From contig DYPL01000023.1 of the NCBI GenBank assembly GCA_020719945.1, forward strand, positions 1 through 35,535: a stretch of DNA of 35,535 nucleotides, written 5' to 3'. The DNA comes from Turneriella parva. Its GTDB lineage: Bacteria; Spirochaetota; Leptospiria; Turneriellales; Turneriellaceae. Every line of letters begins with the position of its first letter. Position 1 is the first letter of the stretch. Positions 28,653-33,478 of this stretch are shown here, one piece after another. Position numbers and translations under genes: made by a program. Under the pieces are notes generated by a model that was not told the origin of the DNA, did no database searches, and saw only the letters and a program-made list of their open reading frames with translations.

Positions 28653-30089
28653 TTAATTCCCTATGACATCGCGCACAGTGGGAATTTTATCGCCCTGTTC
28701 TTCTTCGCGCTCTGCCTCCTCTTTATCTGGTTGTTCAGTATCAACCTTATCCGGCGTTTTTTCTGGTTCACTCTTGGGCGGTATCCCCTGCGGGGCAATT
28801 TGGCTCAAAAAGAAATCCGCTGAAATCTGAACTTCCCAGGCATTCTCCGAAGGGTTCGCAAGATATGCTCCATGCACGGCAAATGGTGAGGTCATAGATT
28901 GGTAAGAGAATCCCGCATTATACGCTATTTCTGTGCTGCCCAATCCGGTATCGCGCTCAAGCGACTGAAAAGCTGCACCGGAATCGGGCTCTGTCTTGCT
29001 GCTTTTGCCGGTATCGTAGAGAGTAATCGAATTTTCAATTCCGCCGAGAAGCGTGAGTTCCCTGTTCCCCGCCACGGGAAACTGAAACATGACGGGCATG
29101 TTCAGGGAAACGAGCTGTTGTGAAATTCTCATGGTGCCATAGTTTTCTATAGCGGCCAGCGTGTTTCCGTATTCGTACTGTAGCCCGGGAGCCACGAAAA
29201 ATTTTATACGTTCATTTTGAATGCCTTGGCGGTAAAATCCAATTATCTGATAATTTTGCCCAATAACTGCAGCACTTGTATCGGAGCCTGTGTTTTTTTC
29301 GTTCCAGCCCGTTATTTCCGCCTGGCCGGAAAGATCCCAGCCGAAGGCGCCTCCCGCAAACATCGTGAACCATCCAAACGATTCTATTTCAAGACCATAG
29401 CCGCCGCCGAGCTGCGAGTACGTCTCCTGGACAGTGCCAGTCCCGGCGTTGTCGTCTTGAATGGAGTCTTCTATGGTTTTGTATGCCAGGGCAAAATTCC
29501 AAACGTTATTTTGACCTTTGTCGGATCCGCCCGCGTGCAGCCCCGCTTTCATGGTTCGGTTGAGCTGGTCGTATTTTGCGGCGCCACTGTACGTATAGCT
29601 TTCGTCTTGCGCCTGTGCCGCCAGGGTTTCGTAATCGGTTACTCCCGATGCATGTCTTATAGATATTTCGCTGGAATCTACGGTAAAGAAGGCCGCGAGT
29701 CCCATTCCTGCAAGGCTGGTTCCGATTTGCGCCACCGCTGCGTAGTCGTCGTTTCTGCCAGAGACCGTTTGCCCTGCGGCGGTTTCGTTTTGTCTGTATG
29801 CGGAATCGTTGCGAAAGGATACTCCGTAATAGAGCATGGAAATTTTTCCCGCCGTTGAAAACAGAGCTCCCTGCCGGGGATTGCCGACATTGCCAGAGTA
29901 ATGCGCAGAGACGACATCGCGCGAGGCAAGTGAATAAAAAGAGGGCAGCGTAATGGTATCCCATGTGTCAGTGAGGAAATTGCGCTCTGCTCCAATGCTG
30001 TTAGCTGGACTTTTTTCGAGCACGCTTATTTCTGCTGCGAGCGGGCTCAGGATAGAAAATAAAATTGCGGTAATTGTATTTGTCTTCAC
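28653..30089 (-). CDS. Probable outer-membrane beta-barrel protein with acidic C-terminal tail
   Basis: A 478-residue protein with a signal peptide (about 1-19). The body is full of alternating polar/aromatic strands rich in Gly, Tyr and Phe (for example GKISMLYYGVSF, FAVHGAYLANPSENAWEVQISADFF), consistent with a beta-barrel of porin type; this is a pattern judgement, not a family match. After the last strand comes a 40-residue Pro/Glu/Lys tail (PEKTPDKVDTEQP and on), which is unusual because barrels normally end at the final aromatic. The start is GTG 30089, overlapping the phosphatase stop (GTGA). The gene is therefore coupled to the phosphatase. Confidence 0.7.
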   Translation of the reverse strand: MKTNTITAILFSILSPLAAEISVLEKSPANSIGAERNFLTDTWDTITLPSFYSLASRDVVSAHYSGNVGNPRQGALFSTAGKISMLYYGVSFRNDSAYRQNETAAGQTVSGRNDDYAAVAQIGTSLAGMGLAAFFTVDSSEISIRHASGVTDYETLAAQAQDESYTYSGAAKYDQLNRTMKAGLHAGGSDKGQNNVWNFALAYKTIEDSIQDDNAGTGTVQETYSQLGGGYGLEIESFGWFTMFAGGAFGWDLSGQAEITGWNEKNTGSDTSAAVIGQNYQIIGFYRQGIQNERIKFFVAPGLQYEYGNTLAAIENYGTMRISQQLVSLNMPVMFQFPVAGNRELTLLGGIENSITLYDTGKSSKTEPDSGAAFQSLERDTGLGSTEIAYNAGFSYQSMTSPFAVHGAYLANPSENAWEVQISADFFLSQIAPQGIPPKSEPEKTPDKVDTEQPDKEEAEREEEQGDKIPTVRDVIGN

Positions 30090-32293
30090 AGTTTATTCAG
30101 TGCCCTCATTGTTTTTTCGTCATCTGGTTTAATTTCGAGTACCCGCTCAAGACATTTGCGGGCAAGTACTTTTTCTCCCGTTTTTGCATAGACTCTTCCG
30201 AGCAGTTTCCAAGCCTGAACCGATTGAGCAGAAAAGCCAATTGCCTTTTCGAGCGATTCGCGCGCGGCAGTATATTGATTTTGTCGAAATGCTATGTAAC
30301 TCCTGTAGTAGTGGTAGAAGAAGCTTTCGGCGTGGATGTGCTGTATTGTATCGAGTGCTTCCTCGAATTTTTTTTCGTGAATAAGCGAGACAATTGTTTT
30401 TTGGATCTCATTACTGCCTTTGAGCGATTCTTCGTTTTCCTTTCCGAGATACGATATCCGCAGGAGTGAAATATCGTCTCTTATTTCTCCCGCCTGCAGA
30501 ATGGATTCGTACATGGATTCAATTTCACCGTCTGCTTTTTCTACCACATCGAGAAAGAAATCATCGTCGGGGTCTTCCCTGTCAATAAAGTCACTGCGCC
30601 CGTCAGAACCGAGAATGACAATATCTCCCGGTTTTAATTGTTCCTTTAAAACTTCGAACGTTTCTTGGAACGGATTGCCTATTTTGTACATTTGCCGCGA
30701 TGTTCCAAACCACGAGGCCTTGCGATCGCGGTACAGAACGGGTAATGGATGCTCAGCATTAAAATAATAGACCTGGCCTTTTGTTTCTTGGACGAGTCCA
30801 AGAATACAGGTGATGAACATGGCACCGTCAAAACTTTCGAAAATCCGCTGCATTTCGTGAAAGGCATCGCGGAGCCATTCTTTGGGAGTCTGTGTTTTTA
30901 CGGATTCATTGGTCTGGGAGCGCACCATGATGGCATTGATGAGTGCCCCCATCACGAGAGCCCCGCCGGCTCCCTGCATGGATTTTCCCATGGCATCGCC
31001 GTTAAAGAACATGGAATAATGTTCGCCGCGCAACTGTATATTTCCCGTAACACAAAGATCGCCCCCGAGTTCTGAGCTCCAGTGCTTAAACGAAAACTTT
31101 TTCTTTTGCCGCAGAATAAAAGAAGTATTCACAGTTTGCGAGCGATTTCTGTCTCTAAACAGCGGGTTTGCAATCAGCGTGGTGAGGTAATAGTCGGCAT
31201 CCTGCTGCTGCTTGAGTGCCTGTACAGCGGCAAGACTTTCCGAAAGCTCCAGTGTGCGCGCATCGATAAGGACTTCCAGATTTTCTGAGTAGCTGCGGAT
31301 TGCCGTCACCATTTCGTTGAATGTTTTTCCTAATTCTGCAAATTCATCGTTGCCGGATTCCGGAACGCGAATTTCGTAGTTTCGCTCGCTGACTTTTTTT
31401 ACGGCTGTTCCAAGCATTTCGAGGGGTTTTGCCAGCCAGCGCGCCAGAAAAAACGAACTTGCGGGAATCAGCAGTATGGCTATTCCCAGCAGCAGAAAAC
31501 TCATTTCGCGGAGTTTTTGCAGTTCGTACATTTGTGACTGCGCGGATATGTCTATGCCAAGAACCGCGATCATGTTGCCAGCAGCGTCCCGGATAGGGGC
31601 GGCAGCCGTCATCCAAGTGCCCCACTTATCTTTCTCAAATTCTTTGGCTGTGGTTAGAATATTTTTCTGCAGACTTTCCTGGATGGTAAGCCCTTCTACG
31701 GGAAAAATGAGGCCTGGATTGGTAGGTTCTTCTTCGTCGTCAATGCTGCCGTTTCCGTTCATGTCTATGGCTTCGTAATCTGCATCGGCCAGAAAAATGG
31801 AGTAACCGGGATGCAGCGGATGCGGAATTAGCAGATACGCATAGCGAATCCCGGGCCGGTTTCCCTGAGCGTCGCGAATAATCTGGTGGAATTTTTTCCA
31901 TTGCGCGTCTGCCGGCAGGGTAGAAGCTTTTATGGCTCTAAGCTCCTGGATAATGCGCCCGTATTCCGGCATGGTAATAATAGAATCTATGTCTTCCGGA
32001 GAAAGGCTGTCTTCGCTTTCTTGCACAGCCAGCAGTTCTTTTTCCGTGATGGGGATCGCTCGGGAGAGAATTTCCTGTGTGAGCAGGCGCAGATCTTTCT
32101 GTAGACCCGGGCTAAAGCGAAGCAGGCCACCCTGCAATATGTCGCGCAGGTGAGATTCGGTCTGCTGAGTAATAATATTACTGCTTACGCTGTAGAGATA
32201 GAAAAGTCCAGCTCCCATAAGAATTGCTATTAACGCACCGGTCAGGAGCATCATTTTGAGGGCAAACGGAAATCTGGCAGAGAGCGGTTTCAT
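30086..32293 (-). CDS. Membrane SpoIIE-type PP2C phosphatase with EF-hand sensor, HAMP and TPRs
   Basis: A 735-residue signalling protein. TM1 is at about 12-36 and a periplasmic sensor at about 37-262. The sensor holds the loop DMNGNGSIDDEE at 177-188, a textbook EF-hand calcium site (Asp177, Asn179, Asn181, Gly182, Asp185, Glu188). TM2 is at about 264-286, HAMP at about 287-340, then a coiled coil. The SpoIIE/PP2C domain spans about 395-615, with acidic metal positions at GGD412, FNGD433, GSDG (Asp564) and RDD (606-607). Two TPR units end the protein (about 635-735). It should dephosphorylate Ser/Thr-phosphorylated regulators, typically STAS proteins. Confidence 0.9.
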   Translation of the reverse strand: MKPLSARFPFALKMMLLTGALIAILMGAGLFYLYSVSSNIITQQTESHLRDILQGGLLRFSPGLQKDLRLLTQEILSRAIPITEKELLAVQESEDSLSPEDIDSIITMPEYGRIIQELRAIKASTLPADAQWKKFHQIIRDAQGNRPGIRYAYLLIPHPLHPGYSIFLADADYEAIDMNGNGSIDDEEEPTNPGLIFPVEGLTIQESLQKNILTTAKEFEKDKWGTWMTAAAPIRDAAGNMIAVLGIDISAQSQMYELQKLREMSFLLLGIAILLIPASSFFLARWLAKPLEMLGTAVKKVSERNYEIRVPESGNDEFAELGKTFNEMVTAIRSYSENLEVLIDARTLELSESLAAVQALKQQQDADYYLTTLIANPLFRDRNRSQTVNTSFILRQKKKFSFKHWSSELGGDLCVTGNIQLRGEHYSMFFNGDAMGKSMQGAGGALVMGALINAIMVRSQTNESVKTQTPKEWLRDAFHEMQRIFESFDGAMFITCILGLVQETKGQVYYFNAEHPLPVLYRDRKASWFGTSRQMYKIGNPFQETFEVLKEQLKPGDIVILGSDGRSDFIDREDPDDDFFLDVVEKADGEIESMYESILQAGEIRDDISLLRISYLGKENEESLKGSNEIQKTIVSLIHEKKFEEALDTIQHIHAESFFYHYYRSYIAFRQNQYTAARESLEKAIGFSAQSVQAWKLLGRVYAKTGEKVLARKCLERVLEIKPDDEKTMRALNKL

Positions 32294-32380
32294 ATGATGC
32301 GCGCCATAGAATCGAAATTATTGCATACCCGCAAGCGAAAAACTTCTTCCCCGTGTAAGCGCTCGTTTTGAGGTTGTACC

Positions 32381-33478
32381 ATGTTTGGAAAAAAGAAAGA
32401 AAATATACAGGATATAGTAACAGAAATACTGTTAGGTGCAGAAATTCCAGGATTGGGAAAATCAGCGGCAGCAGCCGGAGCTGTTCTCGAGGTCTCCGAG
32501 GAAACAGGAATTTTCACGTTTCTCGTGAAGAATCTTCCCAGTCGCAAGAGCCAGATAGAGCTCGATGCAGCAGCGCGGACTCGTCTTTCTGAGCGAGGAA
32601 TTGATCAGAGCAAAATTATAATCAAGTTCGATGCTCCTCCTGCCCCCAAAGTAGAAACCACCGTTATTACACCATCGGCACCTCCATCGAACACCATTCC
32701 CGGAGTGAAACGCGTATTTGCGGTGGGCTCTGGAAAGGGCGGCGTCGGAAAATCTACTGTAACTGTTAACCTTGCGGCATCCCTTGTGAAGGCGGGCTAC
32801 AAGGTGGGCATACTCGACGCAGATATTTACGGGCCTTCCATCGGAAAAATGATGGGGCTCAATGGACGCCAGCCCGTAGAAGTGCGCGGAGACAGAATTA
32901 TTCCTCTCCAGAATCATGGAATTACGGTTATGAGCTTTGCCTTCCTTATAGAAGAAAATGCGCCGGTTATCTGGAGGGCCTCCATGCTGAATAAAGCCAT
33001 GAACCAGCTTTTGCACGATGTAGAATGGGGAGAGCTCGATTACATGATTATAGATCTGCCGCCGGGAACGGGAGATACGCAGCTCAATCTTTCGCAGATG
33101 GTTAAAACAGATGGCGCCGTCGTTGTAACGACTCCGCAGAACGTGGCGCTCCTCGATGCCACCCGCGCCGTACACATGTTCGAAAAGGTAAATATTCCCG
33201 TGGTGGGCGTAATCGAAAACATGAGCGAGTTTATTTGTCCGCATTGCGGCAAGCCTTCTCATATATTCTCACACGGAGGCGGAGAGACTCTTGCCGAGGC
33301 ATCGGAATCGGCTCTGCTTGGGCGCGTTCCTCTCACCATGCGGCTCATGGAGTCGGGCGAAAAAGGGGAGCCTCTGGTGTTGTCTGCCGATACAGAAGAT
33401 CCCCAGGTTGCTCCCGTGCAGTCTGCCTATGCGCATATTCTACAGAACTTTCTTTCTGTGATCGCGCATATTGACTGA
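32381..33478 (+). CDS. mrp: Mrp/ApbC/NBP35-family iron-sulfur carrier ATPase
   Basis: A P-loop ATPase that binds and transfers [4Fe-4S] clusters to target apoproteins. The 365 residues comprise a small N-terminal domain (about 5-85), which looks like a diverged MIP18/DUF59 domain without its usual DPE motif. A Pro-rich linker follows, then the ATPase domain with deviant Walker A GKGGVGKST at 118-126, DADIYGPS, and DLPPGTGDTQLNLSQ. The cluster-binding pair is Cys286/Cys289 in CPHCGK. The start ATG has GAGG 7 nt upstream. It is divergent from the phosphatase, with 87 bp between starts, and is followed by a 12-bp stem-loop. Confidence 0.95.
   Translation: MFGKKKENIQDIVTEILLGAEIPGLGKSAAAAGAVLEVSEETGIFTFLVKNLPSRKSQIELDAAARTRLSERGIDQSKIIIKFDAPPAPKVETTVITPSAPPSNTIPGVKRVFAVGSGKGGVGKSTVTVNLAASLVKAGYKVGILDADIYGPSIGKMMGLNGRQPVEVRGDRIIPLQNHGITVMSFAFLIEENAPVIWRASMLNKAMNQLLHDVEWGELDYMIIDLPPGTGDTQLNLSQMVKTDGAVVVTTPQNVALLDATRAVHMFEKVNIPVVGVIENMSEFICPHCGKPSHIFSHGGGETLAEASESALLGRVPLTMRLMESGEKGEPLVLSADTEDPQVAPVQSAYAHILQNFLSVIAHID

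Follow-up and report, generated by a model that had tools for sequence, protein, structure and literature searches.

Our results point to a putative calcium-binding loop in the sensor of a membrane phosphatase encoded by Turneriella parva. The gene lies on a 35,535-nucleotide stretch of DNA (contig DYPL01000023.1 of assembly GCA_020719945.1), which we refer to in its entirety as the window, and its product joins a sensor between two transmembrane (TM) helices to a HAMP domain, a SpoIIE phosphatase domain, and C-terminal TPRs. From structure prediction, the sensor appears to be a single PDC-type Cache domain that carries an EF-hand-type loop in a strand-loop-strand setting, and the same kind of loop-bearing sensor recurs with at least five outputs. 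Judging from the pattern of conservation described below, it is very likely that the loop binds Ca2+ in the periplasm.

The 12-residue EF-hand loop consensus had been recognized in residues 177-188 (DMNGNGSIDDEE) by an earlier reading of this DNA, hereafter the original prediction, and the key positions do fit: D at position 1, D or N at positions 3 and 5, G at position 6, a hydrophobic residue at position 8, and E at position 12. The same prediction had named orthologues without the Asp/Asn/Glu pattern as one observation that would undo it. We found the pattern in all 19 sensor-aligned sequences (alignment A1), which comprise the window protein and 18 of 29 other recovered loci, selected for alignment over the sensor; the alignment leaves out L022-L030, where the loop region is unaligned, and L016 and L020, which align only from residue 115 or 131. 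Position 1 was D and position 12 was E in 19 of 19 sequences, positions 3 and 5 were each N or D in 19 of 19, position 8 was always I, L, or M, and position 9 was always D, S, or E. Position 6 was G in 17 sequences and N in 2, while positions 2, 4, 7, and 10 varied freely. Outside the loop, pairwise identity of these sensors ranged from 23 to 85%, with a median of 32%. When six sensor columns were drawn at random, they were as conserved as EF-consensus columns 1, 3, 5, 6, 8, and 12 in 3 of 20,000 draws. In shuffles of the window sensor, the strict EF pattern arose once in 20,000 and a looser PROSITE-like pattern arose 58 times in 20,000; across the 11,151 residues of 32 window open reading frames (ORFs), the looser pattern matched once, at the DMNGNGSIDDEE loop. 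Together with the variability of positions 2, 4, 7, and 10, these statistics look like the outcome of selection on the calcium-ligand positions of the loop. A chance motif was rejected on the shuffles, the pattern scan, and the column draws. In a wider set, collected with a pattern that admitted D or E at position 12, 59 of 60 loops had E, the residue that makes EF loops prefer Ca2+.

Structure prediction of residues 37-262, which had been suggested alongside the original prediction, placed the loop in a single PDC-type Cache domain and not in an EF-hand. The term "EF-hand" therefore holds for the 12-residue loop and not for the helix-loop-helix fold, since the modeled order is a strand (residues 164-170), the loop, a three-residue helix (186-188), and a second strand (195-198). 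A true EF-hand domain was rejected because the predicted structure has no flanking E and F helices. The AlphaFold2 (AF2) model, built from 59 sensor sequences, had a predicted local distance difference test score (pLDDT) of 94.0 and a predicted template modeling score of 0.90, with a pLDDT of 92 and 94 for the pair of ten-residue blocks containing the loop; it replaced an earlier 19-row model (pLDDT 84; loop blocks 61 and 82). In the model, a long N-terminal helix is packed on a PDC sheet, the arrangement expected of a Cache/PDC domain between two TM helices. VIA-align matched it to WalK (4ywz; Z 13.4, 2.7 Å over 139 residues), DcuS (3by8; Z 12.4, 2.4 Å over 133), and CitA (1p0z; Z 12.2, 2.3 Å over 131), with overall Z values of 12-13 and root-mean-square deviations of 2.3-2.9 Å over 131-140 residues for these proteins, and Cache/PDC sensors predominated among the best 50 entries. 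The loop sits in a beta-hairpin, between a conserved FxxD strand and a strand that reads IGxxY in most relatives and PGLIF in the window protein.

No Pfam family matched residues 37-262 of the window phosphatase over its cut-off; dCache_1 reached E ≤ 1 in 7 of the 19 members (6.5e-5 at best) and had no match in the window protein. Fold searches of solved structures placed Cache domains at the top. Sequence searches of solved structures with A2 and with A5, a profile made from loop-bearing rows and excluded from the conservation counts, yielded for the most part EF-hand proteins, aligned on the loop, together with a small number of weak matches to other proteins, including chemoreceptors (for A5, in the best 60 of 280). 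Because the matches listed fall mostly on the loop, they do not indicate a solved loop-bearing Cache domain.

The outputs attached to the loop-bearing sensor in the window's class of spirochaetes are SpoIIE phosphatases, class III nucleotide cyclases, Hpt-type kinases, and HisKA kinases, and in Planctomycetota, Hanks Ser/Thr kinases. With a profile built from just the sensor (A3), matches were found in 37 of 48 class genomes at E ≤ 1e-3. Canonical loops, under a pattern in which D is allowed at position 12 as well (L105 has it), occurred in at least 25 of the 48, or 26 if G011 is counted, where the gene is split over two frames (L250). More than half of the loop-bearing class genomes (14 of 25) combine the loop with at least two output labels; the window's own genome has only one sensor of this type by A3. 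Pfam identified class III cyclases, Hpt/HATPase kinases, a HisKA/HATPase kinase, and SpoIIE phosphatases among chosen class proteins. In a scan of 29 proteins besides the window's, an output domain was found in 28; L067, labeled a cyclase, has a truncated frame in which Pfam shows only HAMP, and L072 and L073 have Hpt with no HATPase match. Among Planctomycetota, A5 matched 29 of 294 genomes at E ≤ 1e-8, and 30 of the 33 matches were fetched. Eleven of the 294 genomes carry canonical loops, ten on proteins labeled as Ser/Thr kinases and one on a HisKA hybrid kinase (L193); Pkinase was confirmed by Pfam in seven of these ten (L184, L185, L186, L189, L190, L191, and L192). At the same threshold, A5 matched 59 of 247 Spirochaetota genomes, of which 35 belong to the class and 24 do not.

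A scan of named genomes recovered at least seven loci, all with the loop because the peptide patterns used lie on the loop itself. Among the matches listed were four metagenome-assembled genomes (MAGs) labeled Leptospiraceae, Spirochaetaceae, or Spirochaetia, a Gammaproteobacteria MAG with a SpoIIE output, a Planctomycetota MAG, and a Desulfonatronum MAG with a cyclase. Matches occurred in 8 of 349 genomes from the phylum to which the Gammaproteobacteria MAG belongs, and the loop was present only in the seed's own L173 among ten fetched loci; transfer or a binning error may account for this loop-bearing MAG. In the same MAG (L121:5581-9598), the loop-bearing SpoIIE gene is followed by an ORF that by eye is Cache-like, GAF-like, and SpoIIE-like and has no EF loop. 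The phylum of Desulfonatronum gave matches in 20 of 297 genomes, and all 20 loci were examined; a canonical loop was found in the seed only.

The sensor family was still recovered when the loop was masked from the profile. We built a tree from 97 of 136 unique sensors, kept by E < 1e-13 and coverage, using 98 columns from which the loop had been removed and output labels assigned by blastp to references; L193 and L124 bear the loop and lie outside the tree. Across the 97 aligned rows, the FxxD of ordinary relatives is followed by a short turn, such as FLVDSEEPGSDGYSPPGQ, and the EF loop occupies the same place in loop-bearing sensors. Cyclases L102-L104 and L107, for example, read FLADADY-DTEG(E/F)ENPIGN, so that the loop is missing and its flanks are kept. 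Since loop-less relatives keep their flanks, the loop seems dispensable for the fold, and our reading of these sequences is that it can be absent without loss of the sensor. On the tree, loop presence requires 5 changes and output type 11, with rows of output "other" omitted. SpoIIE rows cluster with Hpt kinases (Shimodaira-Hasegawa-like approximate likelihood ratio test [SH-aLRT] 98) and with the cyclase-labeled L085 and L067 (SH-aLRT 98), of which only L085 is a Pfam-confirmed cyclase. We read the grouping of SpoIIE rows with Hpt kinases and L085 as a sign that outputs have been exchanged under a single sensor type. Planctomycete kinases form one group (SH-aLRT 97) that is separate from the spirochaete set. 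With only 98 columns, many forks are open, the window row is on a long branch, and the tree cannot distinguish loop gain from loop loss. In a cyclase subgroup (L105, L106, L111, L109, L069, and L110), the loop is longer or degenerate (DADGDGAFDGDDDYEG, DDDGTGEPYEG), and the site looks as though it is undergoing change or loss. From the Planctomycetota search, L197, L202, L209, and L212 have shorter, Asp-rich, DxDxDG-like loops at the same Cache hairpin, which hints that metal loops have evolved at this place more than once.

How might such a loop act? We propose that the Cache sensor of a SpoIIE (PPM-type) phosphatase acquired an EF-hand-type Ca2+ loop in its beta-hairpin. Ca2+ binding is what we infer from conservation that is specific to the ligand positions, and one ion would be chelated by D177, N179, N181, the carbonyl of S183, D185 (often through water), and E188. 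The original prediction had set the loop between two membrane helices, and hydrophobic segments at about residues 8-36 and 263-284 do flank residues 177-188. The HAMP and catalytic domains come after helix 2, so the sensor segment, and with it the loop, should face the periplasm. Bound Ca2+ would then stiffen or move the hairpin, and this change could be relayed through TM helix 2 and HAMP to switch the phosphatase, which in turn may dephosphorylate a STAS-type anti-sigma antagonist. The host genome contains 17 SpoIIE, 18 STAS, and 8 HATPase_c_2 matches over the cut-off, which makes a partner-switch target for the window phosphatase plausible. In this 2.4-Mb genome, the SpoIIE matches fall mostly on frames of 400-1030 amino acids and make up a large phosphatase-based signaling set. 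We think it reasonably probable that Ca2+ regulates the phosphatase output, and we lean, with similar confidence, toward the full account in which the Cache loop binds periplasmic Ca2+ and adjusts the output through HAMP. This account is supported by the retention of the ligand positions and by the presence of the same loop on cyclases, Hpt-type kinases, HisKA kinases, Hanks kinases, and other SpoIIE proteins.

Yet, several observations weigh against calcium sensing. At millimolar external Ca2+, the site could always be filled, and EF-type loops of extracytoplasmic proteins are often structural. The AF2 model contains no ion. Many relatives are loop-less: the 62 class rows in the tree set (chosen at E < 1e-13) divide into 49 with the loop and 13 without, and 11 of those 13 are labeled cyclases; SpoIIE rows have it in 24 of 24 cases. 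Two SpoIIE loci, L016 and L020, lack a canonical loop and have a different Cache sensor subtype (loop-masked E of 1.7e-8 and 1.2e-7), which contradicts the statement that all SpoIIE relatives have it. Finally, none of the 16 out-of-class spirochaete genomes examined (L150, L151, and L236-L249) has a canonical loop; in the other 8 of the 24, matches begin at profile position 44 or later, beyond most of the loop.

A rival reading is that Ca2+ is bound without being the signal and holds the hairpin in a shape in which the Cache pocket can sense a different ligand. We consider this unlikely, though it is the likeliest of the alternatives. Loops of the Dx[DN]xDG type occur mostly in extracytoplasmic proteins, where structure stabilization is a common role according to the available passages of PMC3123361, and sensor residues R119, Y153, D172, D222, W224, G225, P233, and D248 are invariant, as expected with a second ligand. 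Nevertheless, the natural absence of the loop between conserved flanks suggests that the fold is independent of it, and the loop is kept across outputs. It is quite improbable that the loop binds Mg2+, Mn2+, or a lanthanide instead: EF loops are not fully ion specific and lanmodulin was also matched by the A5 profile on sequence, but E at position 12 favors Ca2+, and the Pro typical of lanmodulin at position 2 was not found in the 19 orthologues. An acidic surface turn that merely resembles an EF loop and binds nothing is hardly credible, for even though Pfam EF-hand models score the window protein under the cut-off (E 0.15 for EF-hand_5), conservation alternates at exactly the ligand positions despite a median identity of 32%.

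Membrane phosphatases of the SiaA type from Pseudomonas share the architecture of a TM sensor followed by HAMP and a phosphatase domain; SiaA is not known to have an EF loop or TPR. The corresponding NCBIfam model (NF038263) weakly matched window residues 247-394 (58.7 bits versus a cut-off of 700), a match that spans only the end of the window sensor, TM helix 2, HAMP, and the linker. Another comparison is with CasA of Vibrio fischeri, a diguanylate cyclase that responds to calcium and whose sensor is predicted to be dCache_1; the calcium response is partly lost when D236 or E293 is changed (PMC8576532). Like the window protein, CasA has a periplasmic Cache-type sensor between two TM regions, a proposed or observed link to Ca2+, and acidic sensor residues with a predicted or demonstrated role; it differs in having a GGDEF output and dCache_1 in place of the single PDC unit of our model, and EF-hands are not mentioned in the available text of PMC8576532. 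For another dCache protein, DvhD, the ligand could not be determined, as far as the available part of PMC13090378 relates. A review covers the Ca2+-linked systems LadS, CarSR, CvsSR, and PhoPQ, and the term cache is absent from its accessible portion (PMC10574481). The Cache superfamily, defined with its outputs by Upadhyay et al. in 2016, resembles the window sensor in fold and in being joined to kinases, phosphatases, cyclases, and Ser/Thr kinases, whereas no calcium loop like the one in the window hairpin is described in the passages available from PMC4822843. Rigden et al. in 2011 placed strand-loop-strand among the contexts of Ca2+-binding Dx[DN]xDG loops and noted their extracytoplasmic bias. 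These non-EF loops have the same ligand pattern as the window loop, but the window host fold is a signaling receptor, and cache, sensor, and histidine kinase go unmentioned in the sections at hand (PMC3123361). Among the papers listed by searches of open-licence PMC literature, which leave subscription papers outside their reach, we found no description of an EF-loop-bearing Cache sensor; the two papers retrieved on Cache domains together with EF-hands deal, judging by their titles, with eukaryotes.

For external Ca2+, bacterial receptors with a defined ion site are few, and many Cache domains still lack an assigned ligand. In the present case, the sequence by itself points to a ligand and to the residues to mutate, and relatives that lack the loop offer natural controls, for five output types. 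We tentatively suggest, with rather less confidence than for the window phosphatase itself, that Cache domains with an EF loop form a portable receptor for extracellular calcium, so far undescribed, which bacteria have joined to protein dephosphorylation, phosphorelay, Ser/Thr phosphorylation, and the synthesis of cyclic nucleotides. Spirochaetes of the window's class would then use it in parallel, through several paralogues per genome that differ in output. If so, spirochaetes and planctomycetes would have a link from external calcium to partner-switching phosphatases, cyclic nucleotides, and Hanks kinases, and the sensor may serve as a reusable receptor across phosphatases, cyclases, histidine kinases, and protein kinases.

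Features of the phosphatase gene and its product, in window positions
Feature	Position	Strand	Basis
Membrane phosphatase, 735 aa, TM-Cache sensor-TM-HAMP-SpoIIE-TPR	30086..32293	-	ORF and Pfam
Membrane helix 1, about residues 8-36	32186..32272	-	Hydropathy windows above 1.6
Periplasmic Cache/PDC sensor (predicted), residues 37-262	31508..32185	-	AF2 model and VIA-align fold matches
EF-hand-type calcium loop (putative), residues 177-188, DMNGNGSIDDEE	31730..31765	-	Sequence and conservation
Membrane helix 2, about residues 263-283	31445..31507	-	Hydropathy
HAMP domain, residues 282-333	31295..31450	-	PF00672, 49.7 bits vs cut-off 25
SpoIIE phosphatase domain, residues 425-614	30452..31021	-	PF07228, 94.5 bits vs cut-off 25
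C-terminal TPR, about residues 668-728	30110..30292	-	PF14559, PF07719

The HAMP, SpoIIE, and TPR regions of the window phosphatase all score above their Pfam cut-offs. Their combination, which the original prediction called uncommon, is not unique to this protein: L096 also passes Pfam for all three, and the arrangement recurs in the class. The C-terminal TPR region is aligned in most of the 19 rows of A1, and some related cyclases have TPR signals under the Pfam cut-off. Residues D412, D433, D564, D606, and D607, which we take to be metal binding, are D in 19 of 19 relatives; with these catalytic residues kept, the phosphatase is probably active.

A conserved operon was rejected: when 14 window genes were compared by tblastn (E 1e-5) with the 15- to 17-kb neighborhoods of seven relatives, only the phosphatase itself was found, so that the neighbors give no functional clue, and a scan of positions 32200-32500 found no promoter or terminator signal. 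A STAS-domain gene on the same contig (15320-15616, minus strand) is a possible partner-switch component. Immediately downstream of the phosphatase, a gene on the minus strand (28653-30089) encodes a 478-amino-acid protein with a signal-peptide-like start and no Pfam match up to an E of 1; the two reading frames overlap by 4 bases, at its GTG start and the phosphatase stop, which suggests that they are translated together.

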